Origin: Chitinophagaceae bacterium
GTDB taxonomy: Bacteria > Bacteroidota > Bacteroidia > Chitinophagales > Chitinophagaceae
DNA length: 64,000 nt
Direction: 5' to 3'
NCBI GenBank assembly: GCA_004322015.1
Contig: SCQT01000050.1
Location: 1-64,000, forward strand
The position numbers and the translations under genes are program-made. Shown piece by piece: positions 5,628 to 58,668 of the stretch. The notes below the pieces were generated by a model. That model was given only the letters and a program-made list of their open reading frames with translations, did no database searches and was not told the origin of the DNA. Each line of letters opens with the position of its first letter. Within the stretch, counting starts at the first letter, position 1.

Positions 5628-6797
5628 CTACTTTCCCCTGTTTGGTATTACATACGCATTCACGTCCTCTGCTGTAATAGTCTTCCCCGAAAGGATGATC
5701 AATCTTTCCACTACATTACGCAGTTCACGAATGTTACCTGTCCAGTCATGTTTCTGCAGGGCTTTCAATGCTTCTTTGTTGACTTCTTTCCTGGCAATGC
5801 CGTAGTCAGAGCAAATGTTTTCCAGAAAATGTTCAGTAAGGATGGGTATATCATCCACCCTGTCGTTGAGAGAAGGTACGTGGATGATAATCACGCTGAG
5901 CCGGTGATACAGATCAAGGCGAAAATTTTTATCTTCCACCTCTTTAAGCAGGTCTTTGTTTGTGGCAGCAATTACTCTTACATCCACATTAATCTCCTTC
6001 TCACCGCCTACACGGGTTATCTTTCCTTCCTGCAGTGCGCGCAATACTTTTGCCTGTGCACTCAGGCTCATATCCCCTACTTCATCCAGGAATAAAGTGC
6101 CTCCGTTGGCCTTTTCAAATTTTCCTATACGTTGTTTGATGGCTGAAGTAAAGGAGCCTTTTTCATGCCCGAATAATTCACTCTCTATCAGCTCGCTGGG
6201 AATTGCTGCACAATTCACTTCAATCAACGGCGCTGAAGCGCGGTTACTTTTCTCATGTATCCAGCGTGCTACCAACTCCTTCCCCACTCCGTTCTCACCG
6301 GTTACCAAAACCCTTGCATCTGTAGGAGCCACCTTTTCAATTGTTTCCCTGATGTGCCGGATCGGCTCCGATTCGCCGATCATTTCCTGTGTTTTGAAAA
6401 CTTTTTTTCGGAGTGTTTTTGTCTCTGCAACCAAAGTGGTCCTGTCCAGCGCATTGCGAATGGTGATCAGGATACGGTTCAGATCGGGGGGTTTGGAGAT
6501 AAAATCAAACGCACCTTTTTTGACAGCTTCTACAGCGTTATCAATATTTCCATGTCCGGAAACCATGATAATAGGAACATCCGGGTTGATCTCCACTGCC
6601 TGCTCAAGGAATTCCATGCCGTCAATCTTGGGCATTTTGATATCGCAAAGCACCACATCATAGGTATTCTTTTTAAAAAGATTGATCCCTTCCTGTCCGT
6701 CTGCCGCCTCTTCTATTTTATATCCTTCGTAACTAAGAATATCAGATAAAGTGTTACGAATACTCTTTTCATCATCTATGATCAGGATCGTGGCCAT
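5628..6797 (-). CDS. Sigma54-type response regulator (receiver + AAA+), no C-terminal HTH
   Basis: Residues 1-120 are a receiver with acidic pocket D8/D9, phosphoacceptor D52 and K102. The sigma54-activation AAA+ domain follows, with Walker A GENGVGKE (167-174), Walker B GGTLFLDEVGD (about 229-239) and NIRELRNVVERLIIL near the end. The protein stops at 389 residues, right after the AAA+ lid, so the usual Fis-type DNA-binding domain is missing. The sigma54-contact loop is GSFTSA (214-219) instead of GAFTGA. Both traits recur, as far as I recall, in Bacteroidota relatives, so it is probably functional but may act without specific DNA binding. No partner histidine kinase is adjacent. Confidence 0.85.
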   Translation of the reverse strand: MATILIIDDEKSIRNTLSDILSYEGYKIEEAADGQEGINLFKKNTYDVVLCDIKMPKIDGMEFLEQAVEINPDVPIIMVSGHGNIDNAVEAVKKGAFDFISKPPDLNRILITIRNALDRTTLVAETKTLRKKVFKTQEMIGESEPIRHIRETIEKVAPTDARVLVTGENGVGKELVARWIHEKSNRASAPLIEVNCAAIPSELIESELFGHEKGSFTSAIKQRIGKFEKANGGTLFLDEVGDMSLSAQAKVLRALQEGKITRVGGEKEINVDVRVIAATNKDLLKEVEDKNFRLDLYHRLSVIIIHVPSLNDRVDDIPILTEHFLENICSDYGIARKEVNKEALKALQKHDWTGNIRELRNVVERLIILSGKTITAEDVNAYVIPNRGK

Positions 6798-6800
6798 TTT

Positions 6801-6905
6801 CGGTTGTGGTTATAAGTTGTCAGTTAGTGTTAAGGGGTCAATGGAAAGTAATATCATCATAGTCAATATCCAATAACCATTAACCAATTACTGAATACCC
6901 AATCA
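6801..6905. repeat. Degenerate 7-bp tandem array between pdhB and the response regulator
   Basis: About 15 heptads in one register, clearest at 6864-6905 (CAATATC, CAATAAC, CATTAAC, CAATTAC, ...). The pdhB stop codon (6903-6905) lies inside the last unit. Confidence 0.65.
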
Positions 6906-7886
6906 TTTCTCTACATACATCACCTCTTTCACTACTTTTATCGTTTTTTCAATACTGGGTAAATACAGTTTAGCTAAGTTGGGCGCATAATGCATAGGTG
7001 CATCCACAGAAGTGATACGGCGGACCGGTGCATCCAGGTAATCAAAACCTTCTTTCTGAATGCGATAACCTATTTCGGATGAAACGCTGCACATAGGCCA
7101 TTGTTCTTCCACAATAACCAGGCGGTTTGTCTTCTTAACCGATTCCAAAATAGTCATCCAATCTAAAGGGCGGATCGTACGAAGGTCTATCACTTCCGCT
7201 TCAATACCTTCTTTGGAAAGCTCTTCCGCAGCTCCCAAAGCCACTTTCATCATTTTATTGAAAGAAACGATCGTCACATCTTTCCCCTGTCTTTTTATAT
7301 CCGCCTTTCCGATAGGAATGAGATATTCTTCTTCAGGCACTTCACCGGAATCGCTGTACATGACTTCGCTTTCCATAAAAATCACCGGATCATCATCACG
7401 AATAGCCGACTTCAATAAGCCTTTAGCATCATAGGGGTTAGAAACCGAAATCACTTTTATCCCGGGGATATTGGCATAAAAGCTCTCAAAAGCTGTGGAA
7501 TGTTGGGCGCCCAACTGTCCTGCAGAACCGTTTGGCCCCCTGAAAACGATCGGGCAACCTACCTGCCCGCCACTCATTGCCAGCATTTTAGAAGCAGTAT
7601 TCAATATCTGGTCTAACGCCAACACGGCAAAATTCCATGTCATGAATTCCACAATCGGGCGAAGCCCGTTCTGTGCCGCACCTACGCCGATACCGGCAAA
7701 ACCCAGCTCAGAAATAGGTGTATCAATGATACGCCTTTCGCCAAACTCTTCCAGCATTCCCTGGCTTACCTTATAAGCTCCGTTATATTCTGCCACTTCT
7801 TCTCCCATCAGGAAAACGCGTTCATCACGGCGCATTTCTTCCTCCATGGCTTCCCTGAGCGCCTGTCTGAAAAGTATTTCTCGCAT
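6903..7886 (-). CDS. pdhB: Pyruvate dehydrogenase E1 component, beta subunit
   Basis: 327 residues, the normal length for E1-beta. Starts [18 protein letters not shown] and carries [35 protein letters not shown] and [14 protein letters not shown], all typical of the transketolase-like beta subunit that shapes the thiamine diphosphate site with E1-alpha. The C-terminal transketolase domain includes DLRTIRPLD and IVEEQWP. It makes acetyl-CoA from pyruvate as part of the PDH complex. The E1-alpha and E2 genes are not adjacent. The start is supported by a -7 promoter element 33 bases upstream. Confidence 0.95.
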
Positions 7887-10548: not shown

Positions 10549-11406
10549 ATGAAATTTCTGAATAAAAATTATTCTTTTCCTGTCTCCGCCACTGGTATGA
10601 TAGTAATGTTAACCGGATTGATATTATCAGGCAGCGGTTGCCATACGGAAAAGAAAATAATAAAAGCAATCTCCGTAACCTCGCCTGGAAGCCCGACAGC
10701 CATCCGTCCTGTAAGCCATTACCTTTCCTCTGATTTTATTTTGCAAAAGCTCAGGGAAAATATCATTCCTTACCAGACTTTTTCAGCCCATGCCCGGCTT
10801 GACATTACTACGCCTAATGGAACACAAAGTGGCATTGCTACGTATATCCGGATGCAAAAGGACAGCGCTATCTGGATATCTATAAGGCCTGTTTTAGGAA
10901 TAGAATTGGTCAGGATCCTTATTACTCCCGACAGTGTGAAGGTGATTAATTTCTTTAAAAAGACGATTACGTTGCGCAGCGTTGATTCGCTTCAGCAGCT
11001 TCTTCATATTCCATTTGACTTCAACGCTTTACAGGACTTGATAGTAGGTAACCCTCCTGTGCTCACAGACAGCGTGGATGAGATCGAGCCTAACGACAGC
11101 ACAGACCACAGTATCTCCTTTTCATGCCAAAATCAGCACATGCTATGCAGCTACCTGATTGATACCCGCAATTATTTATTATTAAAAAATACTTTATCGC
11201 AGAAGGATACCTCGATGGAGACCAGGAGGTCGGAAGAATCTTTCGGAGAATATATTCTGACAAGCCAACATCCATTTTCCACCAAAAGGCATCTTGTTAT
11301 TCAAACAGGCTCAGAAACCATTGCAGATATTAAATTCAGTCGCATCGAATTTGATAAAACCATTGATTTTCCTTTTCCTGAAGTGAATAATTTCCGGAGA
11401 GAATAA
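10549..11406 (+). CDS. DUF4292 family lipoprotein
   Basis: Signal peptide ending in SGSGC (Cys31), then a DUF4292-type domain: YQTFSAHARLDITTPNGTQ, a LolA/LolB-like beta-sheet pattern, and DSAIWISIRPVLGIELVRI, the family hallmark. LolB-like folds bind lipid or lipoprotein acyl chains, so a role in moving hydrophobic cargo or stabilising the envelope is possible but unproven. It is 11 bases after the TPR gene and most likely co-transcribed with it. Confidence 0.8.
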   Translation: MKFLNKNYSFPVSATGMIVMLTGLILSGSGCHTEKKIIKAISVTSPGSPTAIRPVSHYLSSDFILQKLRENIIPYQTFSAHARLDITTPNGTQSGIATYIRMQKDSAIWISIRPVLGIELVRILITPDSVKVINFFKKTITLRSVDSLQQLLHIPFDFNALQDLIVGNPPVLTDSVDEIEPNDSTDHSISFSCQNQHMLCSYLIDTRNYLLLKNTLSQKDTSMETRRSEESFGEYILTSQHPFSTKRHLVIQTGSETIADIKFSRIEFDKTIDFPFPEVNNFRRE

Positions 11407-11467
11407 TTTTTCACAAAATTTTATTCAATTATTGACGTTCAACTGGTAATAGCAGAAACCATTTTAT

Positions 11468-11475
11468 TAAATTTG
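11468..11475 (+). promoter_or_regulatory. -7 promoter element for the EnvC-like gene (TAAATTTG)
   Basis: Matches TAnnTTTG. Predicted start near 11480 gives a leader of about 14 bases. No clear -33 element. Confidence 0.45.
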
Positions 11476-11493
11476 CCGCGTTTATAGCTTGAT

Positions 11494-12879
11494 ATGCGTT
11501 TATTACCCTCTATTTATCGCCTGCCTGTACTGCTTTTATGCTGTGTACTTCCGTGCCTGACCCGGGCACAGCAGCCGTCGCCTTCACGCACGGAATTAGA
11601 GCAACAGCGGGAACAATTGCAGAAAGACATACAACGGGCTACCCAGGATCTGAACCAGGTGCAAAAGAACAGGCAGAGAACGATGACGCAGCTTCGTATC
11701 CTGGACAATAAAATGCGCTTGCGTCAAAAGCTTGTAGCCAATATCAACCAGGAGATCAATTTTATCAACGGGGATATTAATAAAGCTAATCATGACATTG
11801 CATCCCTTCAAAAGGATTTGGATACACTCAGAGCACAATATGGCAGGCTGGTCGTATATGCCTTTAAAAATCGCAGTGCTTACGATTTTCTTAATTTTAT
11901 TCTTTCTGCCAACAGCTTTAATGATGCGATCAAGCGGTTTGAATATCTGAAGCAATACCGTGCCTATCGTCAAAATCAGGCAGCCAGTATTATCTCCACG
12001 CAATCTCAGCTTAAGGAGAAAATCAACAACCTTGACGCAATGAAAGATAAACGAAGCAAGGTGCTGACCTCTGAGGAAGGTCAGGTGCAAAAAATTGAAA
12101 ATGAGAAGCAGGAAAAGAACGATATGGTCAAAAGCCTGAAGGGGCATGAAAAAGAGCTGATGACCAGTATTAAAGAAAAAAGGATCCAATCTAATCAGCT
12201 TAGTATAAAAATTGCAGCGGTCATCCGTCGTGAAATTGAAGAAGCACAGAGAAGGGCGGCAGAAGAAGCGCGTAAGAGAGCGGAGGCAAGAGCGCGGGCA
12301 TTGGCAGAAGCCAAAGAACCGGCTCCCTCGGCAAACCCTGCTAAAGAACCGGCCAATCCATCTCCTGCATTCACTCCTTCATCTACCCCCCCTCCTGTAG
12401 CAGCCATTACGACTAAAGCAAGACCTGCTAACGTATTGGAATCCACTCCCGAGGCATTAGCCCTCTCCGAAAGCTTTGAGGCCAACAGGGGCAAGCTTCC
12501 CTGGCCCGTATCCAAAGCCATTATAATCAGCACTTTTGGTATTCACCAAAACCCGGTATTAGAAAAAATAATGGAAGATAATAAAGGTATCACCTTAGAG
12601 ACCGAGCAGGGGGCTGCCGTACATGCTGTCTTCACCGGCGAGGTGGCCAGCGTGTTCCCGGTTTCCAACAGGTGGACAGTGGTGATCCGTCATGGACAGT
12701 ATTTTACGGTTTATTCTAATCTGAAAGATGCCATTGTGCAGACAGGCCAACAGGTTAAAACCATGCAAACCATAGGTACCGTTTATACAAATCCCACTAC
12801 AGGAGAATCGGATCTTGACTTTCAGGTATATAAATCCCAGCAGCCTGTGAACCCGCAGTTCTGGCTCAGGAGTATGTAA
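11494..12879 (+). CDS. EnvC-like murein hydrolase activator with degenerate LytM domain
   Basis: Signal peptide (to LTRAQQ), a long coiled coil (about 30-265) split by a helical segment, a low-complexity Ala/Pro-rich linker (about 260-310), and a C-terminal LytM/M23 domain starting at GKLPWPVSKAIIISTFGIH. The zinc ligands of active M23 peptidases are missing: NKGITLET replaces the HxGID motif, YSNL the HxH pair, and LDFQV the LHFEV strand. It should therefore activate an amidase, as EnvC/NlpD do, and not cut peptidoglycan itself. Acts in the periplasm, probably in daughter-cell separation. Confidence 0.88.
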   Translation: MRLLPSIYRLPVLLLCCVLPCLTRAQQPSPSRTELEQQREQLQKDIQRATQDLNQVQKNRQRTMTQLRILDNKMRLRQKLVANINQEINFINGDINKANHDIASLQKDLDTLRAQYGRLVVYAFKNRSAYDFLNFILSANSFNDAIKRFEYLKQYRAYRQNQAASIISTQSQLKEKINNLDAMKDKRSKVLTSEEGQVQKIENEKQEKNDMVKSLKGHEKELMTSIKEKRIQSNQLSIKIAAVIRREIEEAQRRAAEEARKRAEARARALAEAKEPAPSANPAKEPANPSPAFTPSSTPPPVAAITTKARPANVLESTPEALALSESFEANRGKLPWPVSKAIIISTFGIHQNPVLEKIMEDNKGITLETEQGAAVHAVFTGEVASVFPVSNRWTVVIRHGQYFTVYSNLKDAIVQTGQQVKTMQTIGTVYTNPTTGESDLDFQVYKSQQPVNPQFWLRSM

Positions 12880-44732: not shown

Positions 44733-45818
44733 ATGAATCGTACAATCGTCCGGATTATTTTGATTCTTGTGGTGGTATGTGCCATAGGTGCCCTGGCTTA
44801 CAATAAAGTGAAAAAAGATCAAAAGCAGGCCGCCGAAAGAAAAAGTATGGCAAAAGGCTCCAAAGGCCTGTTGGTGGATGCTTATGTGGTAAGGCCTGTT
44901 CCATTGCAAAACAACTTGGAGGTGACCGGCACTTTGCTGAGCAATGAATCCATTGGGATACAACCTGAGACCACAGGCAGAATTACACAAATAAACTTTA
45001 AGGAAGGGTCCTATGTAAAAAAAGGTGACCTCCTGGTAGAGTTATTCGATGGCGACCTGAAAGCACAGTTGGAGAAATCCAAAATTCAGCAACAATTAGC
45101 GGACACCACCCTCAAACGTCAAAAACAACTGCTTGCCATCAACGGCATCAGCGAACAAAACGTGGACAATACCCAAAACCAAGTAGCCTCAGCTCAGGCA
45201 GATATTAATTATTATAAAGCGGAGATCAGCAAGACAGATATTCGTGCTCCTTTTGACGGCAAGGTGGGACTCAGGCAGGTAAGTGTGGGAGCTATAGTAA
45301 CCCCTTCTACGGTGATCACTAATCTTTACCAGAACAATCCTTTGAAATTGCAATTTTCAGTACCTGAGAAATATCGGGACAGGATCTCATTAGGCGACAA
45401 GGTGAGTTTTTCTGTTTCTGAGATGCATGATCGCAGCTTCTCAGGAGAAATTTACGCGATTGATCCGGGGGTTGATCCCGTGACCAGAACCGTTACCATG
45501 CGCGCACTTGTGGGAAACAATAAAAATATACTGGCACCCGGTGGTTTTGCAGTTGTCCACATTGATTTGCATCATATTCCCGACGCCTTAATGATCCCAT
45601 CTCAGGCGCTGATACCCACCACCCAGGATGCTCAGGTAATAGTAAGCAGGAACGGGAAGGCCGTATTTGTAACGGTACAAACAGGGGAACGCACTGCCGA
45701 TCAGGTACAGATCATTTCCGGCCTGAATGCAGGAGATACTGTACTTACCACAGGGATTATGCAGGCGATGCCCGGGGCAAGCCTGCATTTTATGCATGTG
45801 AGCAGTGATGAAAAATAG
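44733..45818 (+). CDS. RND efflux periplasmic adaptor (membrane fusion protein)
   Basis: N-terminal membrane anchor (about 5-24, VRIILILVVVCAIGALAY), a lipoyl/barrel-sandwich domain with ETTGRITQINFKEGSYVKKGDLLVEL, an alpha-hairpin (about 105-150), then the beta-barrel and membrane-proximal domains (FDGKVGLRQVSVGAIVTPST, PVTRTVTMRALVGN). Bridges the RND pump and the TolC-like channel. First gene of a complete tripartite efflux operon; no local repressor gene. Confidence 0.93.
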   Translation: MNRTIVRIILILVVVCAIGALAYNKVKKDQKQAAERKSMAKGSKGLLVDAYVVRPVPLQNNLEVTGTLLSNESIGIQPETTGRITQINFKEGSYVKKGDLLVELFDGDLKAQLEKSKIQQQLADTTLKRQKQLLAINGISEQNVDNTQNQVASAQADINYYKAEISKTDIRAPFDGKVGLRQVSVGAIVTPSTVITNLYQNNPLKLQFSVPEKYRDRISLGDKVSFSVSEMHDRSFSGEIYAIDPGVDPVTRTVTMRALVGNNKNILAPGGFAVVHIDLHHIPDALMIPSQALIPTTQDAQVIVSRNGKAVFVTVQTGERTADQVQIISGLNAGDTVLTTGIMQAMPGASLHFMHVSSDEK

Positions 45819-45851
45819 TTTTAGCAAAAGTTTTAGAATTGAAAATCTGCC

Positions 45852-48800
45852 ATGAGCCTACCTTCCATATCACTCAGACGCCCGGTATTGGCTATCGTGA
45901 TGAGTATTATCATCGTGATCTTTGGTATTGTGGGGTTTACTTTTCTGGGCGTTAGAGATTATCCGGCCATTGATCCGCCGGTGATCAGTGTGCGCACTTC
46001 TTATACAGGGGCAAACGCTTCCATTATAGAATCCCAGATAACTGATCCGCTGGAAAAAGCTATTAATGGTATTGCCGGTATTCAAAGCATCTCTTCTACC
46101 AGTTCGCAGGGTATCAGTTCCATTACCGTACAATTTGACCTGGGAACAGATCTCGAAGCGGCAGCTAATGATGTACGTGATAAAGTGTCCGGCGCCGTCC
46201 GTTCATTACCTCAGGATATTGATGCCCCACCGGTAGTCAGCAAGGCCGACGCTAATGCCTCACCCATTATGGCGCTGACTTTGCAAAGCACCACCCGTAA
46301 TCAAATGCAGTTGACCGATTATGCAGAAAACGTATTAGAGCAGACGCTGCAGACCATACCAGGTGTCAGCTCTATTCAGGTTTGGGGAGAGAAATTATAT
46401 TCCATGCGTCTCTGGTTGAATCCGTTGAAAATGGCTGCTTACGGGATTACTCCGCAGGATGTTCAGGCCGCTTTAAATCAGCAAAATGTTGAACTGCCTT
46501 CAGGTACAGTTACCGGCGATGCCACACAACTGACCATCCGCACCATGGGAAGGCTTTATACACCCGAACAATTTAATAATCTTATTATAAAAGACGTGGG
46601 TGGAAAGATCATCCATCTGTCCGACATCGGTTCCGCAGAATTAGGTCCTGAAAATCAGGAAACTATTCTCCGGGAAAAAAATGCTCCAATGGTTGGATTG
46701 GCTATTATTCCTTTGCCGGGTTCAAATTATGTGGCTATTTCTGATGAATTTTATAAAAGATTAGATCAAATAAGGAAAGATCTGCCAAAAGATTTAAAGC
46801 TGAATATTATTTTTGATGACAGCCAATATATTAAAAATTCAATCAGTGAGGTAAAAGAAACATTGATCATTGCTTTGATCTTAGTGATCCTGATCATTTA
46901 CTTCTTCTTCCGCGATTGGATCATCGCCATAAGACCGCTTTTAGATATTCCTGTCTCCCTGATCGGCGCTTTTTTCATCATGTATTTATGTGGTTTTTCC
47001 ATTAACATACTGACCTTATTGGGAATCGTATTAGCGACCGGTCTGGTGGTGGATGATGGCATTGTAGTTACTGAAAACATCTTTAAAAAATTAGAAGCCG
47101 GCATGCCTAAAATGCAGGCCTGCCGCGAAGGTTCGGAGGAAATATTTTTCGCAGTGATCGCCACTTCCGTTACATTGGCTTTCGTATTTCTGCCGATTGT
47201 ATTCCTCCAGGGATTCGTAGGAAGACTATTCCGCGAATTTGGTATTGTCGTAGCCGGTGCTGTCTTGCTCTCAGCATTTGTTTCGCTGACACTTACGCCG
47301 GTACTCAACCTGAAGATGGCGCGCGATGCGCATCATCATTCGGGATTTTATAAAAAAACAGAACCTTTTTTCCAATGGTTTGAGGGAGGATATAAAAACT
47401 CACTAACTCGTTTTATGGAAATGAGATGGGCTGCATTATTCATTATAGGAGTATGTCTTGCCATGATCTGGTTTATCGGTAAAAGCCTGAAATCGGAATT
47501 AGCCCCCCTGGAAGACAGGAGCCAGTTCCGCGTATCCATGACCGCTCCCGAAGGGACCTCATTTACTTCCATGGACCAATATGTGAAGAATGAAGTTAGT
47601 TTTATTATGGATTCCATTCCCGAACATAATATGGTTCTTTCGGTTACCTCCCCCTCTTTTGGCGGAAACGGAGGCAGCAATACTGCATTTATGTATGTAA
47701 CCCTGGTACCACCGGATAAACGCCATCGTTCCCAACAGCAAATCGTTAATTATTTTAACAGCCAACAAAAATATTTCCCACAAGGGCGTGCTTACGCTAT
47801 TCAGACTCAAACCATTCAGCAGAGCCGCCATACCACTTTACCAGTGCAGTTCGTGATTGAAAATATTAATTTCGATTCATTAGCCCATGTCTTACCTGTC
47901 TTTTTAAACAGGGCACAAAAAGATCCCATGTTTCAGGTGGTGGATGTAGATCTGAAATTTAACAGCCCTGAATTAAGAGTGACAATAAACCGGGCAAAAG
48001 CCAGCCAGATGGGCGTTTCCATCGCAGATGTATCCCAGGCATTGCAATTGGCTTTATCTAATGTGCGTTACGGATATTTTACTATCAACGGTATGCAATA
48101 CGATGTGGTGGGAGAACTTTTGTGGAATTATCGTGATGCACCTTCCGATCTCAAATCTATTTATGTGAGAAATAACCAGGGGCAATCTATTTCTTTGGAT
48201 AACCTGGTGACCATGCAAACTTCTACCGCGCCTCCTACGATCTATCATTATAACCGCTATAAGTCTGCTACTATTTCAGCGAGCCTGGCGCCCGGTATTA
48301 CACAAGGGCAAGGGATAGAGGAGATGCAGAAAATAGCCAAAGAAACGTTGGGACCTTCTTTCAGCACCGCCCTGACGGGTTCTTCCCTGGATTATGAACA
48401 AAGCTCTTCCAACACCTTGTTCGCCTTCGTGCTGGCCATGGTATTGATCTACCTGGTTTTAGCCGCACAATTTGAAAGCTGGATAGATCCGTTTATTATC
48501 ATGATCACTGTCCCATTGGCATTAGCAGGCGCCGTGCTATGCTTATGGCTTTTTGATCAGACATTGAACATATTTTCAGAGATCGGTATGATCATGCTGA
48601 TCGGATTAGTCACAAAAAATGGTATTCTTATTGTAGAATTCGCCAACAAAAAACGGGATGCCGGCATGAGCAGGATCAATGCTGCCATTGAAGCCGCCTC
48701 GTTACGCCTGCGCCCTATTTTAATGACCAGTCTGGCCATGTCATTAGGCGCTTTGCCCATCGCATTATCCTTAGGCGCTGCATCCACCAGCCGCATTCCG

Positions 48801-48959
48801 CTCGGCATAGTGATTGTGGGAGGAATTATTTTTGCCCTTATTCTGACTTTATTTGTGATCCCGGCCATGTACTCTTTCCTTTCCAGGAGGAAGCCGGCAA
48901 ACCTGATTGACGGAGAGGGGATTTTACAAGAGAAAGAATTAAGGATATCCCAGGGTTGA
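45852..48959 (+). CDS. RND multidrug efflux permease (HAE1-type)
   Basis: 1035 residues with 12 transmembrane helices and two large periplasmic loops, as in AcrB/MexI. It has the N-terminal LRRPVLAIVMSIIIVIFGIVG, the proton-relay aspartates in GLVVDDGIVVTENIFK (TM4), GSSLDYEQSSS in the second loop and a conserved TM11-12 region (RLRPILMTSLAMSLGALP). Uses the proton gradient to export hydrophobic compounds. Sits 33 bases after the adaptor and 14 bases before the outer-membrane channel gene. Confidence 0.96.
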   Translation: MSLPSISLRRPVLAIVMSIIIVIFGIVGFTFLGVRDYPAIDPPVISVRTSYTGANASIIESQITDPLEKAINGIAGIQSISSTSSQGISSITVQFDLGTDLEAAANDVRDKVSGAVRSLPQDIDAPPVVSKADANASPIMALTLQSTTRNQMQLTDYAENVLEQTLQTIPGVSSIQVWGEKLYSMRLWLNPLKMAAYGITPQDVQAALNQQNVELPSGTVTGDATQLTIRTMGRLYTPEQFNNLIIKDVGGKIIHLSDIGSAELGPENQETILREKNAPMVGLAIIPLPGSNYVAISDEFYKRLDQIRKDLPKDLKLNIIFDDSQYIKNSISEVKETLIIALILVILIIYFFFRDWIIAIRPLLDIPVSLIGAFFIMYLCGFSINILTLLGIVLATGLVVDDGIVVTENIFKKLEAGMPKMQACREGSEEIFFAVIATSVTLAFVFLPIVFLQGFVGRLFREFGIVVAGAVLLSAFVSLTLTPVLNLKMARDAHHHSGFYKKTEPFFQWFEGGYKNSLTRFMEMRWAALFIIGVCLAMIWFIGKSLKSELAPLEDRSQFRVSMTAPEGTSFTSMDQYVKNEVSFIMDSIPEHNMVLSVTSPSFGGNGGSNTAFMYVTLVPPDKRHRSQQQIVNYFNSQQKYFPQGRAYAIQTQTIQQSRHTTLPVQFVIENINFDSLAHVLPVFLNRAQKDPMFQVVDVDLKFNSPELRVTINRAKASQMGVSIADVSQALQLALSNVRYGYFTINGMQYDVVGELLWNYRDAPSDLKSIYVRNNQGQSISLDNLVTMQTSTAPPTIYHYNRYKSATISASLAPGITQGQGIEEMQKIAKETLGPSFSTALTGSSLDYEQSSSNTLFAFVLAMVLIYLVLAAQFESWIDPFIIMITVPLALAGAVLCLWLFDQTLNIFSEIGMIMLIGLVTKNGILIVEFANKKRDAGMSRINAAIEAASLRLRPILMTSLAMSLGALPIALSLGAASTSRIPLGIVIVGGIIFALILTLFVIPAMYSFLSRRKPANLIDGEGILQEKELRISQG

Positions 48960-48973
48960 TTAAAATTTGAATA

Positions 48974-50284
48974 ATGAAATTATTGCCTGTTTATTTTTTA
49001 TGTGTGTTATTCATCTGTGATTTCTTTCAAAGTGAGGCACAAGAATTAATGACTTTGGATGATGCCATTACGATCGGATTAAAAAATAATTACAATATTC
49101 TGATGGCAAAAAACCAGGAGGAAGCGGCAGCAGTGGATTATCACTATGCTTTCGGCGCATTCCTGCCTGTGCTTAGCGGAACCGCATCTAAAACATGGTA
49201 CACTGAAAGCGTCAGTCAGAAGTACTCCAATGGCAACAAAGTAGAGCGTAACGGTGCAAAATCAAGCCAGACATCGCTTTCAGCCAACCTGAACTGGACC
49301 TTGTTTGATGGATTAAAAGTATTTGCCACAAAAGATAAATTAAAAGCTATTGAAGAAGCGGGCACTTTAACTGTGAAAAATCAGGTGGTGACCACGATAG
49401 CGCAAATCATTCAGTCCTATTATAATATTGTGCAGCAGAAGGAGCAATTGGCTTCAATTGCAGAGCAAATGTCCATTTCCGAAGAACGTGTAAAAATCGC
49501 CGGGAACGAATTCAACAGCGGTTTAGGCTCTAAGATTGATCTGCTGCAGGCGCAGGTGGATCTGAATTCACAAAAAGCTTCCTATCTGCAGCAGCAGACT
49601 TTGATTGAGGAAAGTAAAGCGTCTCTCAACCGGTTAATTGCAGTTCCTGTTGATAATGATTACCTGGTTACTGATAGTATTCCTGTTGACACAACTCTAA
49701 ATTATGCCTCCATTAAACAAGCCGCATTAGCCGATAATCCGGGCCTGTTATTAGCCAGGAAGAATATTGATATTTCACGGTTAGCATTGAAAGAAGTACA
49801 GCGCAGCCGTTTACCGACTGTTTCTTTTAATTCCAGCTATGCTTTCAACAGCACGAATTCTGAAGCCGGTTTTTTTCTTTTGAATCAGAATAGAGGATTA
49901 AATTACGGGGTCTCTGCATCTATACCTGTTTTTCAGGGATTCCTTCACAATCAACAGGCGAAGAATGCGCAACTGAACATCGCCTATAATCAGTTAAGCC
50001 TCCGGAATCAGCAGTCGTTAGTTTCAGAGGAACTGCGTAATGCTTACAAAAGCTATGAATATTATATCAAAGCGATCCGGTTAGCAGAAGAAAACCTGAC
50101 AGTGGCTGAGGAAAACGTGAAAGTAAACTTAGCCGCCTTTCAGCAGGGGCAGGTCAGTTCCTTAGAGGTGAAACAAGCCCAACAAAGTCTTGCTGAGACC
50201 CGGTTCACTTTAATCTCTGCTCAGTATAATGCCAAATTAGCCGAGACCAATTTGTTAATGCTGAAAGGTGATCTTGTAAAATAG
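48974..50284 (+). CDS. TolC-family outer-membrane efflux channel
   Basis: Signal peptide (to QSEAQ), then two OEP repeats with the typical LTLDDAI-type start (LMTLDDAITIGLKNNYNIL), long coiled-coil helices (EEAAAVDYHYAFGAFLP, SEERVKIAGNEFNSGLGSKIDLLQAQ) and a matching second half (EENVKVNLAAFQQGQVSSLEV). No lipobox. Completes the tripartite pump with the two upstream genes. Confidence 0.94.
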   Translation: MKLLPVYFLCVLFICDFFQSEAQELMTLDDAITIGLKNNYNILMAKNQEEAAAVDYHYAFGAFLPVLSGTASKTWYTESVSQKYSNGNKVERNGAKSSQTSLSANLNWTLFDGLKVFATKDKLKAIEEAGTLTVKNQVVTTIAQIIQSYYNIVQQKEQLASIAEQMSISEERVKIAGNEFNSGLGSKIDLLQAQVDLNSQKASYLQQQTLIEESKASLNRLIAVPVDNDYLVTDSIPVDTTLNYASIKQAALADNPGLLLARKNIDISRLALKEVQRSRLPTVSFNSSYAFNSTNSEAGFFLLNQNRGLNYGVSASIPVFQGFLHNQQAKNAQLNIAYNQLSLRNQQSLVSEELRNAYKSYEYYIKAIRLAEENLTVAEENVKVNLAAFQQGQVSSLEVKQAQQSLAETRFTLISAQYNAKLAETNLLMLKGDLVK

Positions 50285-50498: not shown

Positions 50499-51209
50499 AT
50501 GATCGAGAATTACTACAAATGGCATTCTCCCGATCTCGGACGTGAATTTCAAATGCTGGTTTTTGGCGACCGCGGCGTACCTGTAATTCTTTTCCCGACC
50601 TCCATGGGGAGATATTATGAGAACAAAGACCGGGGAATGATTGATGCAGCACAATGGTTCATTAATGAAGGGTTGATAAAAATCTATTGCCCCGACAGCA
50701 TTGACACAGACAGTTGGTATAATAATGACATAGCTCCTAATATACGAGCCTATAATCATAGTTGTTATGACCGGCTTATACTCCATGAAATAGTGGGCCG
50801 AGCCGCCCATGAAACGGGACATCGCCGGGTCGTTACGGCAGGCTGCAGCTTTGGGGGATACCATGCGGCTAATTTTGCCTTCAGGCATCCTGCTATGGTG
50901 TCTCATCTGTTTTCCATGAGCGGAGTTTTCGATATTAAATCGAGAGTTTCCGGCTATTATGCTGATGATGTGTATTATAATAATCCTGTAGATTTTTTAC
51001 CCGGAGATCAGGATCCCAACCTTTGGAAAATGGGTATCATCTTAGGTGTGGCGGGAAATGACATTTGCCGTGAGCAAAATGAAAGACTTTCAGGTATTTT
51101 ATGGCAAAAAGGAATTTCTCACTGGCTGGATATCAGGCCTGATGCTACGCACGACTGGCCGGTGTGGAAAGAAATGTTTCCACATTATCTCTCAAAAATA
51201 AATTTTTAA
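50499..51209 (+). CDS. Esterase-family alpha/beta hydrolase (amidoligase cluster)
   Basis: 236 residues. Nucleophile elbow GCSFGGYHA (about 109-117), a preceding NIRAYNHSCYDRLILHE helix, and the catalytic His in DATHDWPVWKEMFPHYL near the end; the acid is probably in VAGNDICREQN. This is the esterase/COG4947-like group, cytoplasmic (no signal peptide). It lies 10 bases before an ATP-grasp gene and in one operon with a GCS2-family ligase, so it probably acts on the product or a protected precursor of that pathway. Confidence 0.88.
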   Translation: MIENYYKWHSPDLGREFQMLVFGDRGVPVILFPTSMGRYYENKDRGMIDAAQWFINEGLIKIYCPDSIDTDSWYNNDIAPNIRAYNHSCYDRLILHEIVGRAAHETGHRRVVTAGCSFGGYHAANFAFRHPAMVSHLFSMSGVFDIKSRVSGYYADDVYYNNPVDFLPGDQDPNLWKMGIILGVAGNDICREQNERLSGILWQKGISHWLDIRPDATHDWPVWKEMFPHYLSKINF

Positions 51210-51219
51210 ATTATTTCAG

Positions 51220-52182
51220 ATGAAAAGAATTGGAATTCTCTTTGGAGTTGAAAACAGCTTTCCCCAGGCTTTCATTAATAAGGTGAACAGCAAAAATGAG
51301 GAAACTATTATAGCCGAGCCGGTTAGCATTGACAAAGCAATTCAGGGAGAGCCAAGCGGTTATGCTGTTATCATTGACCGTATTTCTCAGGATGTGCCTT
51401 TTTACCGCTCTTTTCTCAAGAATGCAGCGCTGCGCGGCACGGCTGTGATCAACAATCCTTTCTGGTGGAGTGCTGATGAAAAATTCTTTAATAATTGTTT
51501 AGCCACAAAAATCGGCGTGCCTGTACCCAAAACCGTTTTGCTTCCTTCCCGTGAATTACCCCCGGATACTTCTAACGAATCTTTTAAGAATCTGGCCTAT
51601 CCTCTGGATTGGGAAGCCATATTTAATTATACCGGATTTCCCGCCTACATGAAACCTTTTGCCGGCGGCGGATGGAAAAGTGTGTATAAACTCCATAACA
51701 AAGAAGAATTTTTTGAAAAGCATGCGGAAACGGGACAATTAGTGATGATGCTGCAGGAAGAGATCACCTTTGAATCCTACTTCAGATGTTACTGCATTGG
51801 CGGAAAGCATGTCCGTATCATGCCTTATGAGCCGCGGAATCCGCATCATCTTCGTTATCATGCCACTCATCCGTTAGATGGAAATCTGTTGCGATTGATA
51901 GAAAACTATACCATTCGTTTAAATCAATTTTTGGGCTATGATTTTAATACGGTGGAATTTGCAGTGCGTGACGGAATACCTTATGCCATTGATTTCTGCA
52001 ATCCGGCGCCGGATGCGGACAAGCATTCCGTAGGTGAGGAGAATTTCGAATGGGTTGTGGAAACTGCCGCCCGCTATGCCATTGAACGTGCTGCCTCGCA
52101 AAAAGACGATGTGGATAATCTCACCTGGGGAAAATTTGTGCTTGACTCGGTTGACAAGAGAGAGGTGAAAAGATGGCCGTAA
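51220..52182 (+). CDS. ATP-grasp ligase (RimK/glutathione-synthetase-like)
   Basis: 320 residues with ATP-grasp features in order: INNPFWWSADEKFFNNCLA (about 78-96), the ATP-binding lysine and glycine loop MKPFAGGGWKSV, hinge LQEEI, and metal ligands in NTVEFAV and AIDFCNPAPDAD near the C-terminus. ATP-grasp enzymes join a carboxylate to an amine through an acylphosphate. Substrates unknown. It sits between an esterase and a GCS2-family ligase, so two different peptide-bond-forming enzymes occur in the same operon. Confidence 0.85.
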   Translation: MKRIGILFGVENSFPQAFINKVNSKNEETIIAEPVSIDKAIQGEPSGYAVIIDRISQDVPFYRSFLKNAALRGTAVINNPFWWSADEKFFNNCLATKIGVPVPKTVLLPSRELPPDTSNESFKNLAYPLDWEAIFNYTGFPAYMKPFAGGGWKSVYKLHNKEEFFEKHAETGQLVMMLQEEITFESYFRCYCIGGKHVRIMPYEPRNPHHLRYHATHPLDGNLLRLIENYTIRLNQFLGYDFNTVEFAVRDGIPYAIDFCNPAPDADKHSVGEENFEWVVETAARYAIERAASQKDDVDNLTWGKFVLDSVDKREVKRWP

Positions 52183-52226
52183 GTTGATAAAACGTGTGAT
52201 GAATAATAAGATCAGAGACGCTGCTT

Positions 52227-52268
52227 CTAAAACCCATATTCGGTGCTCGATATTCAATATTAAAAAAC
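52227..52268. repeat. Short 7-bp tandem array
   Basis: Six heptads from 52227, including CGATATT (52248) and CAATATT (52255). It fills part of the 90-base gap before the GCS2 gene and ends 4 bases before its ATG. Confidence 0.5.
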
Positions 52269-52272
52269 ACTT

Positions 52273-53379
52273 ATGAATTTCAATCAATTTACCCTTGGGG
52301 TGGAAGAAGAATACATGGTCATGGACCCTGAAACGTTAGAGCTGAAATCCCATGAACAAAAGATAGTAGAGCTGGCCCATATGATACTGAAAGACAAGGT
52401 GAAAGCAGAAATGCACCAGGCTGTGGTAGAAGTAGGGACAGAGATTTGTAAAAATATAGGAGAAGCGCGGGAGGATGTAAGATTATTAAGAAAATCTATT
52501 TCCGCTATAGCCCGCAATCTGGGCTTTGTTATCGGAGCATCCGGCACACATCCTTTTTCACGATGGGAAGCACAATTGATCACGGATCATCCGCGCTATT
52601 TTGAAATTGTGAACGAAATGCAGGATGCAGCACGCTCAAATCTCATTTTCGGTTTACACGTGCATGTGGGAATGGAAAACCGTGAAATGGCTTTACATAT
52701 TGCCAATTCATCCCGTTATTTTCTCCCGCACGTATTTGCACTTTCCACTAATTCACCCTTTTGGGAAGGGAGGAATACAGGCTTTAAATCGTTCAGGACT
52801 AAAGTCTTTGATAAATTTCCCCGTACCGGAATACCCGATTATTTTGCAACTATTGATGAATATGACAGGTATATTAATCTCTTAGTTAAAACGAATTGTA
52901 TTGACAATGCGAAGAAAGTCTGGTGGGATTTGCGCGTGCATCCATTTTTCAATACCGTAGAATTCCGCATTTGCGATGTGCTGATGACCCTGGATGAGAC
53001 CATTGCCATTACGGCTTTATTTCAGGCAATCTGCGCCAAGTTATACAAGCTCAGAACAAAAAACCTGAATTTCATTATTTATAAAAGACAATTAGTCAAT
53101 GAAAATAAGTGGCGGGCATCCCGTTACGGCTTAGACGGGAACATGATTGATTTCGGAAAAGAATGTGAAGTAAACACCCGGGTATTGATTTATGAATTAC
53201 TCGATTTTATTGATGATGTGGTAGATGACCTGGGAAGCCGTCATGAGATTCGTTATATTGAAAGAATGTTGCAGCATGGAACCGGAGCCGACAGGCAAAT
53301 ATCCATATATGAAAATACCCAACAGATCAGAGAGGTAGTGAATTATGTGAACAGTGAATTTTTAACGGGCGTGGACTAA
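52273..53379 (+). CDS. Carboxylate-amine ligase, GCS2/YbdK family
   Basis: 368 residues starting MNFNQFTLGVEEEYMVMDP, the GVEEE-type N-terminus of the GCS2 family (glutamine-synthetase-like fold). Other hallmarks: EVGTEIC, IGASGTHPFSRW, the metal/substrate HVHVGM and WDLRVHPFFNTVEFRICDV. The family has weak glutamate-cysteine ligase activity in E. coli YbdK, but the natural product is unknown. Co-directional with the esterase and ATP-grasp genes, last of the trio. Confidence 0.92.
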   Translation: MNFNQFTLGVEEEYMVMDPETLELKSHEQKIVELAHMILKDKVKAEMHQAVVEVGTEICKNIGEAREDVRLLRKSISAIARNLGFVIGASGTHPFSRWEAQLITDHPRYFEIVNEMQDAARSNLIFGLHVHVGMENREMALHIANSSRYFLPHVFALSTNSPFWEGRNTGFKSFRTKVFDKFPRTGIPDYFATIDEYDRYINLLVKTNCIDNAKKVWWDLRVHPFFNTVEFRICDVLMTLDETIAITALFQAICAKLYKLRTKNLNFIIYKRQLVNENKWRASRYGLDGNMIDFGKECEVNTRVLIYELLDFIDDVVDDLGSRHEIRYIERMLQHGTGADRQISIYENTQQIREVVNYVNSEFLTGVD

Positions 53380-53441: not shown

Positions 53442-53852
53442 CTAATGGGGAAGTTTATCCCTTAAGGCTGAATAAACCCAGGTCCCGGCCAGTGCACTCA
53501 ATAGTGTTACTATAATTACACTGAATCCAGAACCGATCTGTGCAAATAACGGGCCTGGGCAGGCACCTGTTAATGCCCAACCCAATCCGAAAATAAATCC
53601 ACCGATGATATATCCTTTATGAAATTTTTTCGCCGGAATACAGATAGCTTCTCCATGAATGGTCGGGACATGCAGCTTTTTAATGAGCAGCACAGAAATG
53701 ATTCCAACCGGAATAGCAGTCATAAAAATACCATACATCTGAAATCCCTGAAAGTGAAACATTTCCTGTATACGGAACCATGAGATTGCTTCACTTTTTG
53801 TCAGAATAATTCCGAATAAAGTTCCGAATACCAGATATTTTATATTTCTCAT
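53442..53852 (-). CDS. YeeE/YedE C-terminal half-transporter (DUF6691-type)
   Basis: 136 residues with four membrane segments and GWALTGACPGPLFAQIGSG, the half of YeeE that carries the conserved Cys in GACPGP. In many bacteria YeeE is one gene, but here it is split in two. Function: thiosulfate or other small sulfur-compound uptake. It lies 7 bases after the other half (53860-54432). Confidence 0.88.
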   Translation of the reverse strand: MRNIKYLVFGTLFGIILTKSEAISWFRIQEMFHFQGFQMYGIFMTAIPVGIISVLLIKKLHVPTIHGEAICIPAKKFHKGYIIGGFIFGLGWALTGACPGPLFAQIGSGFSVIIVTLLSALAGTWVYSALRDKLPH

Positions 53853-53859
53853 CTTGTAA

Positions 53860-54432
53860 CTAAAGCTTTAATACATAAGGAAGTATGAAATAAGAGCATA
53901 TAATACCGCCTGCAAAAAAAGATATTACAGCTACCAACGACGGCCATTGCAGATTAGACAGCCCCATAATACCATGCCCGGACGTACAGCCGCCGGCATA
54001 ACGGGTTCCGAAACCCACCATAAAACCACCTACTATCATTAAAATAATACCTTTCAGGCTGAGTACGGCATGCCAGTTGAATAGATTATCCGGCAGCAGG
54101 CCGCTTTTTGTATTCACACCCATTTGGTGCAACAAATACACTGTATTAGACGAAATATCCACCGGTAAAGGATTGGCAAACACATCCCCTGCTATGATGC
54201 CGCCTATCAGGATGCCGGCCACAAAAAATAAGTTCCAGCTCTCTTTTTTCCAGTCGTAATGTAAAAAATTGATATTGGCAGGAACGCAGGCGGCGCAGAT
54301 ATGTTTCAGCGAAGAGGATACTCCTAAACGTTTATTTCCCGCTACCAGCAGCGCGGGCACTGTCAGCCCGATCAGGGGGCCCCCTATATACCAGGGCCAC
54401 GGTTTCCGCAGAAATTCAATTAACAGAACCAT
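53860..54432 (-). CDS. YeeE/YedE N-terminal half-transporter
   Basis: 190 residues with five membrane segments and the signature [22 protein letters not shown], including the conserved Cys, at about 145-166. A further [11 protein letters not shown] motif holds two cysteines. Pairs with DUF6691 to make the full inner-membrane sulfur-compound channel. A promoter element lies 30 bases upstream. Confidence 0.9.
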
Positions 54433-57537: not shown

Positions 57538-58668
57538 ATGTCCGATTATCAGCATCTGCAGGATTTTATGGAACCCATCATCATGAATGACTTTTTTGGG
57601 GATATCTCTTTTAATGAAAATCAGTTCGGCTATTTTTTAAATCAAGCGGAGAATATAAATAAGGCAGAGGATGATGAAATCGTACTCATAGGTATAAAGG
57701 AGCAGCGGGGAGATGGGTTTCCTTTACCAACTGCGTCACCTGATACGATCAGGAAACAGTTATACCCGATGTACCACTGGCATAACGATATCAGAGTTAC
57801 TGATCTGGGCAATATAAAGTGTGGCCTTTCTTTAAAAGATTCAAAGGCTGCCCTGAAAACAGTAATAGCCGGATTATTAAAAATGAGAAAGGTCGTAGTC
57901 ATTCTGGGAGGGTCTCATGATCTTACGCTTTCTCAATATGATGCCTATGCTTCTAAAGAAAGAATCATAGAAGCTACTGTAATAGATGCTTTAATAGATT
58001 TACATGAAGAAGACGGTCTCCCTTCTCACCATTTTCTTATGGAGATGCTGACCACACAACCCAATTTTCTCCGTCATTATAATCATGTAGGTTTCCAAAG
58101 TTATTTTATTCATCCACGTATGCTGGAAACTCTGGATAAGTTGCGTTTTGACTGTTATCGCCTGGGAATGGCACGTGAAAACATAGAAGATATGGAGCCC
58201 GTTATCAGGCATTCAGATATGATGAGTTTGGATATGTGCGCCTTGCAGGCATCTGCTGCGCCTGCCTGCCGCGTATCTCCCAATGGTTTTACGGGAGAAG
58301 AAGCCTGCACCCTGATGCGATTTGCCGGTATGAGCGAGCGGTTATCTTCCATAGGGATTTACGGTTATCGCGCAGAAACAGACCGTGATGATCTTACAGC
58401 CATTCAGGCTGCACAAATGGTTTGGTATTTTATTGACGGATTTGCATTCCGTAAACGTGAAGCTGATCTAAAAGAGAAAGATGCATTCATTGAATTTCAT
58501 GTCTCTTTTTCTGACCTGCAAACTTCTTTTCTGAAAAGTAAGCGCACCGGACGCTGGTGGATGCAATTACCTGATGAGAAATATATTCCCTGTTCCTATA
58601 AAGATTATCTCACTGCCGGCAAAAATGAAATTCCCGAACGATGGCTGAGGGCCCAGGAAAGGCTTTAA
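57538..58668 (+). CDS. Arginase/formimidoylglutamase-fold protein with degenerate metal site
   Basis: 376 residues with the ureohydrolase fold: ILGGSHDLT keeps the first metal His, but the second motif reads DALIDL, where active enzymes have DAHxD (His to Leu), and the last SLDMCAL, where they have SxDxD (second Asp to Cys). Two of six manganese ligands are thus missing. The NGFTGEEACTLMRFAG region is shared with the Bacteroidota-specific branch annotated as formimidoylglutamase. Probably not an ordinary Mn2+ ureohydrolase; true role unknown. Single gene. Confidence 0.85.
   Translation: MSDYQHLQDFMEPIIMNDFFGDISFNENQFGYFLNQAENINKAEDDEIVLIGIKEQRGDGFPLPTASPDTIRKQLYPMYHWHNDIRVTDLGNIKCGLSLKDSKAALKTVIAGLLKMRKVVVILGGSHDLTLSQYDAYASKERIIEATVIDALIDLHEEDGLPSHHFLMEMLTTQPNFLRHYNHVGFQSYFIHPRMLETLDKLRFDCYRLGMARENIEDMEPVIRHSDMMSLDMCALQASAAPACRVSPNGFTGEEACTLMRFAGMSERLSSIGIYGYRAETDRDDLTAIQAAQMVWYFIDGFAFRKREADLKEKDAFIEFHVSFSDLQTSFLKSKRTGRWWMQLPDEKYIPCSYKDYLTAGKNEIPERWLRAQERL

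Follow-up and report, generated by a model that had tools for sequence, protein, structure and literature searches.

An esterase and two amide ligases of a Chitinophagaceae bacterium as probable members of a co-inherited amidoligase module in Bacteroidota

Introduction

Three neighbouring genes in the genome of a Chitinophagaceae bacterium, predicted to encode an esterase, an ATP-grasp ligase and a GCS2-family ligase, raise the question of whether they act together, and on what kind of product. The genes lie in a stretch of 64,000 nucleotides (GCA_004322015.1, contig SCQT01000050.1, positions 1 to 64,000 of the forward strand), referred to here as the window. An initial annotation, made from the letters of this stretch, had proposed that the two ligases work in sequence on an amino-acid-derived backbone and that the hydrolase trims, unmasks or recycles the product. 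Genes for ATP-grasp and COOH-NH2 ligases, when linked, have been described as encoding successive peptide ligases (PMC4431377), and multi-amidoligase operons were predicted by Iyer et al. 2009, as cited in that work. Here we analyse the three genes together with their relatives in other genomes.

Results

The trio and its surroundings

The coordinates and strands of the open reading frames (Table 1) agree with the initial annotation, which had described three co-directional genes with 10 bases between the first two and 90 between the last two, and the motifs that it listed (GCSFGG, KPFAGGG, VEF...DFCN, GVEEEY and HVHVG) were all found. The ATP-grasp gene (GRASP) and the GCS2 gene are each present in a single copy in the window genome.

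Table 1. The trio and flanking features in the window
Feature	Position	Strand	Length or remark
Tripartite RND efflux operon (HlyD adaptor, AcrB-type pump, OEP channel)	44733..50284	+	complete; 214 bases 5' of esterase
Esterase ESTsame (alpha/beta hydrolase fold, predicted)	50499..51209	+	236 aa
ATP-grasp amide ligase GRASP (RimK/Ddl/LysX-like fold, predicted)	51220..52182	+	320 aa
Intergenic stretch GRASP-GCS2, 90 bases	52183..52272	+	without conserved gene; longest plus-strand ORF 30 aa, TTG start
GCS2-family carboxylate-amine ligase, PRK13515 (YbdK relative, predicted)	52273..53379	+	368 aa
YeeE/YedE-type sulphur transport pair (PF04143)	53442..54432	-	two genes; converges on ligase operon
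Arginase/agmatinase-family gene (PF00491)	57538..58668	+	downstream of ClpB

Functional ties of the trio to the upstream RND pump and to the downstream arginase-family gene were considered and rejected, the linkage to the pump not being conserved in relatives and the arginase-family gene not being found near their trios. A defence system, for which PADLOC gave no match, and cargo of a mobile element or phage were also rejected, the latter because GRASP relatives are absent from the plasmid collection and from IMG/VR contigs.

Predicted enzymes of the trio

The first gene encodes a predicted serine esterase. It scores 20 bits against PF00756, for which the cut-off is 22, with a homologue at locus L069 reaching 30.3, and its profile matches the structures 5vol, 4rgy and 6vh9 (E 3e-7 to 4e-6). 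Alignment places the catalytic triad at S117/D188/H218, and these residues are conserved almost throughout 17 homologues (Ser 16/17, Asp 17/17, His 16/17). Two types of esterase occur near GRASP, a co-directional type like that of the window and a divergently transcribed PF00756 relative, which are distantly homologous (hhalign probability 97%). Among 61 relatives, a GRASP with intact catalytic residues is always accompanied by one or other of these types; of the two, only the co-directional type is present in the window genome.

Two observations on individual esterases may be recorded here. The divergent esterase (L069:8254-9069, minus strand, and its relatives), an enterochelin-esterase-like hydrolase, contains a conserved DExxDRNxNGxIDxIDD loop that resembles the calcium-binding loop of dockerins and EF-hands. 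In the homologue L174:10061-10789, which belongs to an operon of GRASP, GCS2 and a further ligase gene, C5 (see below), the nucleophilic serine is replaced by glycine, and this loss suggests a non-catalytic role for the protein at that locus.

The second gene is predicted, mainly from a structural model, to encode an ATP-grasp amide ligase with a RimK/Ddl/LysX-like fold. GRASP gave no Pfam match, and its score against the RimK family (TIGR00768; E 1.2e-05, 24.8 bits) lies far below the cut-off of 143.4 for membership of that subfamily. Since a sequence search of GRASP against the PDB returned nothing significant, we performed a fold search, in which the AlphaFold model, of moderate confidence (pLDDT 75, pTM 0.77), matched D-Ala-D-Ala ligase, LysX/ArgX and the graspetide ligases PsnB and MdnC (Foldseek E from 8e-13). 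When residues were checked against the list of ATP-grasp features in PMC4431377, K145, G149-G151, R189, E246 and N261 were conserved in 12-13/13 and 20/20 aligned sequences. D258, which sits three residues before N261, is also a conserved position. GRASP thus resembles RimK, LysX and D-Ala-D-Ala ligases in its predicted fold, the K/GGG loop, the invariant R189, E246 and the conserved N261, but differs from them in having no Pfam match, in its low RimK score and in its metal motif, which is D-x-x-N where the usual motif is E-x-N, the glutamate being replaced.

The third gene encodes a predicted GCS2 carboxylate-amine ligase of the PRK13515 type. It passes the cut-offs of PF04107 (E 1.8e-56, 192 bits against 21) and of NCBIfam PRK13515 (NF010039; E 4.5e-157, 522 bits against 371), shares with YbdK and other members of these families the conserved GVEEE and HVHVG motifs and the charged residues of the active site, and aligns with E. 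coli YbdK (1r8g) and a plant glutamate-cysteine ligase (2gwc; E 3.5e-05). Its scores fall below the cut-offs of all PRK13517/13518 models and of the glutamate-cysteine ligase equivalog TIGR02048 (60.6 bits against 249), the latter a negative result for glutathione biosynthesis. What sets it apart from other YbdK/PRK13515 ligases is its position in a multi-ligase operon. The literature that we searched gave no established substrate for PRK13515 members.

Gene order in relatives

With one genome scanned per species, at least 588 loci encoding GRASP relatives were obtained. Nearly all of the closest 80 of these carry the names of Chitinophagaceae, Mucilaginibacter, Pontibacter or other Bacteroidota; the sole exception in name among these 80 is one bin titled Williamsia, which is probably misnamed. 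Flanks were long enough for a comparison at 82 loci: 78 of them have GCS2 downstream of GRASP at a distance of no more than 3.5 kb, and 74 have an esterase upstream. The gap between GRASP and GCS2 is short (median 75.5 bases; 200 bases or less in 80 of the 94 measured), and the genes around the trio vary between relatives while the order of the trio itself stays. The linkage is far above chance: the ATP-grasp and GCS2 genes are not scattered in relatives, and the association of ligases and hydrolase that had been claimed for the window recurs as a conserved unit.

Downstream of the trio, relatives also carry a class-I glutaminase-like gene (GAT), present in 30 of the 78 loci with enough sequence, and a second ligase of the ATP-grasp kind (C5), which accompanies it in 25. 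In the complete operon, found at L051/L196, the five genes follow each other co-directionally in the order ESTsame-GRASP-GCS2-GAT-C5; complete operons at L069 and L083 carry the divergent esterase in addition, and those at L184 and L185 belong to other, distant families. Some operons include M17 or M29 aminopeptidases, and a third ATP-grasp is found near the module in some loci. In 41/100 loci the same strand also encodes, some 3.3 kb upstream, an outer-membrane CarboxypepD_reg/OMP_b-brl_4 barrel. At one locus (L197:4347-9893, genome G263) GRASP and GCS2 are separated by genes for an EmrAB-like MFS pump, its HlyD adaptor and a TetR-like regulator, assigned by eye; the pump is a possible exporter of the product in this one lineage.

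Other loci have a different composition. GCS2, GAT and C5 are present and GRASP is absent at L188, while at L170 and L181 a protein of 471-475 aa adjoins GRASP and GCS2 is not adjacent. The L170 protein (10643-12058) is a circularly permuted ATP-grasp (PF14403), to which the L181 protein (5685-7112) is similar by eye. GAT, an esterase and a further ATP-grasp are encoded at L170 too, which suggests that the pathway there is a variant. Given these subsets and replacements, the pathway may be modular, or the genes may not belong to one pathway.

C5 and GAT

C5 matched no Pfam or NCBIfam family above threshold. Its structural model is confident (pLDDT 88, pTM 0.89), and Foldseek matched it, at E values from 2e-16 to 1e-11, to the GspS-like structure 3n6x (E 2e-16), yeast and human glutathione synthetase, homoglutathione synthetases, YgiC and YjfC. 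C5 shares with glutathione synthetase, glutathionylspermidine synthase (GspS) and YgiC/YjfC their fold, a C-terminal KPLFSFAGxG loop and an N-terminal E112-x-Q114 that corresponds to their E-x-N; it differs in that identity is about 15% and the amidase domain of GspS is missing. In GAT the triad Cys105/His208/Glu210 is kept in 15/15 aligned sequences. One trivial hit aside, GAT and C5 occur in the same 32 genomes out of the 61 relatives. These include the window genome, in which GAT (contig 111) and C5 (contig 265) lie away from the trio.

Co-inheritance across Bacteroidota

Among 395 Bacteroidota genomes, GRASP is present in 134, PRK13515 GCS2 in 126, C5 in 114 and all three in 105, with phi values of 0.82-0.87 for their co-occurrence (Fisher p-values not corrected for phylogeny); GRASP occurs without GCS2 or C5 in 15. 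This pattern goes beyond shared ancestry, since in the mostly negative family f25 the three genes occur together: all seven C5-positive genomes have GCS2 and six of them GRASP, while other listed members have none above cut-offs. Co-inheritance holds even where the module genes are dispersed. GRASP, GCS2, C5, GAT and esterase are a five-enzyme set inherited together in about one quarter to one third of the sampled Bacteroidota.

One genome, G016, is without GCS2, C5 and GAT, and its GRASP homologue (L032:9131-10099, 36% identity) has lost K145, the GGG loop, D258 and N261. This protein is probably a dead or repurposed enzyme, as expected if GRASP were useless without its partners.

Discussion

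Our results suggest that the trio probably comprises the esterase and the first two ligases of a Bacteroidota amidoligase module that would make and recycle one small peptide-like metabolite. What we observed is that the genes are linked and co-inherited and that the enzymes have matching folds and intact catalytic residues; the chemistry is our inference. The initial annotation was thus right to treat the trio as a functional unit, but the pathway that it drew was incomplete, since C5 and GAT are co-inherited with these genes.

Several other readings were weighed. In a low-molecular-weight thiol route, GCS2 would make gamma-glutamylcysteine, C5 and/or GRASP would lengthen this dipeptide into a glutathione-like tripeptide, with the esterase acting like S-formylglutathione hydrolase; the alignment of GCS2 with plant glutamate-cysteine ligase, the fold that C5 shares with glutathione and homoglutathione synthetases and a weak match of the divergent esterase to fghA_ester_D (E 9.8e-05) are all consistent with this. 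However, GCS2 is nearest to YbdK/PRK13515 and not to any characterised glutamate-cysteine ligase, and two ligases suffice for glutathione, as compared to three plus a glutaminase here. Glutathione or another general thiol was dropped as the leading idea on the finding of the bacillithiol synthase BshC in 59/61 relatives, whether the module is present or not: the general thiol role therefore looks filled, and a glutathione substitute is unlikely. The GRASP model also matches PsnB, MdnC and LysX/ArgX, and this, together with the RimK-family profile match, would be explained if GRASP modified a protein or ribosomal peptide, by RimK-like tagging or as a graspetide ligase, with its neighbours acting separately. 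We consider this quite improbable: GRASP is tightly co-inherited with a glutaminase and with two further ligases for small substrates, and a conserved precursor gene is absent. The operon gaps, which is where we searched, offer neither room nor a conserved ORF for a graspetide precursor, and a graspetide or other ribosomal peptide was rejected on this result.

The match of the divergent esterase to enterochelin esterase PRK10439 (E 2.7e-16) and the frequent upstream barrel might point instead to a siderophore or metallophore, built by stand-alone ligases and relieved of its metal by a Fes-like esterase. This match, however, reaches 60 bits where the cut-off is 222, and the PF00756 family is broad; the barrel type is common in Bacteroidota and absent from more than half of the loci, genes for siderophore tailoring or export do not recur there, and the module has a broad, stable distribution and not a sporadic one, all of which makes a metal-binding product very unlikely. 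It also seems highly improbable that the genes are adjacent through inherited gene order alone and function independently. Partial sets in some genomes, and the placement of GAT and C5 on other contigs in the window genome, are in line with independence, but co-inheritance persists where the genes are unlinked, including in f25, and complete operons recur in distant families.

We therefore return to a shared amidoligase pathway. Characterised relatives of the three amide ligases work via acylphosphate chemistry, and three such ligases, together with GAT and esterases, would suit a route in which a small peptide-like amide is built step by step and turned over. In such a scheme, GCS2 would turn the side-chain carboxylate of glutamate, or a similar compound, into an acylphosphate and join it to an amine, GRASP (RimK/Ddl-like) would form a second amide, and C5, with its glutathione-synthetase/YgiC fold, a third, possibly by attaching an amino acid or polyamine as a cap to the terminal carboxylate. 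GAT would cleave a gamma-glutamyl amide, and so take off a gamma-glutamyl group that serves as protection or as carrier, or would release ammonia; the esterases would cleave an ester, thioester or amide in maturation or recycling; and the aminopeptidases, where present, would hydrolyse or recycle the product, a small gamma-glutamyl-type peptide or amide. Any particular order of these steps is considerably less certain than the pathway itself. As to the roles that the initial annotation had assigned, ligases working in sequence agree with what is recognised for linked ATP-grasp and COOH-NH2 ligases (PMC4431377), although C5 and GAT had been left out, and unmasking of the product by the hydrolase is one option, GAT being at least an equal candidate for removal of a gamma-glutamyl group.

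A proven parallel is the pathway to the pseudo-tripeptide E-64, in which a glutathione-synthetase-fold ATP-grasp is followed by a second, unrelated stand-alone ligase (PMC12568646); YgiC and YjfC are cited in the same work as peptidylpolyamine synthetases. E-64 and dapdiamide biosynthesis use an adenylating amide synthetase, whereas the module described here has GCS2, two ATP-grasps, a glutaminase and esterases, and its distribution, unlike theirs, is broad and conserved. The module also resembles the operons of Iyer et al. 2009, as far as these are described in PMC4431377, in which ATP-grasp genes are linked to ligase domains of unrelated kinds, COOH-NH2 ligases among them. The families and the operon logic are thus already known. 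We found no description of the five-enzyme combination in the searchable literature, whose coverage does not extend to Iyer et al. 2009.

The module is small, with five genes that form one complete operon in some lineages. Bacteroidota matter in soil, in water and in animal hosts, and uncharacterised stand-alone amide ligases are useful biocatalysts. Retention of the module in so large a share of the sampled Bacteroidota, beyond a single class, makes a niche secondary metabolite unlikely. We tentatively suggest, as a possibility worth serious attention, that the product is a widespread Bacteroidota cofactor or osmolyte, a gamma-glutamyl-type pseudo-tripeptide or polyamine amide made by three unrelated or distantly related amide ligases and served by its own glutaminase and esterases. 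The breadth of the module suggests that a cofactor, a stress protectant or a signalling peptide may have gone unrecognised in these bacteria.
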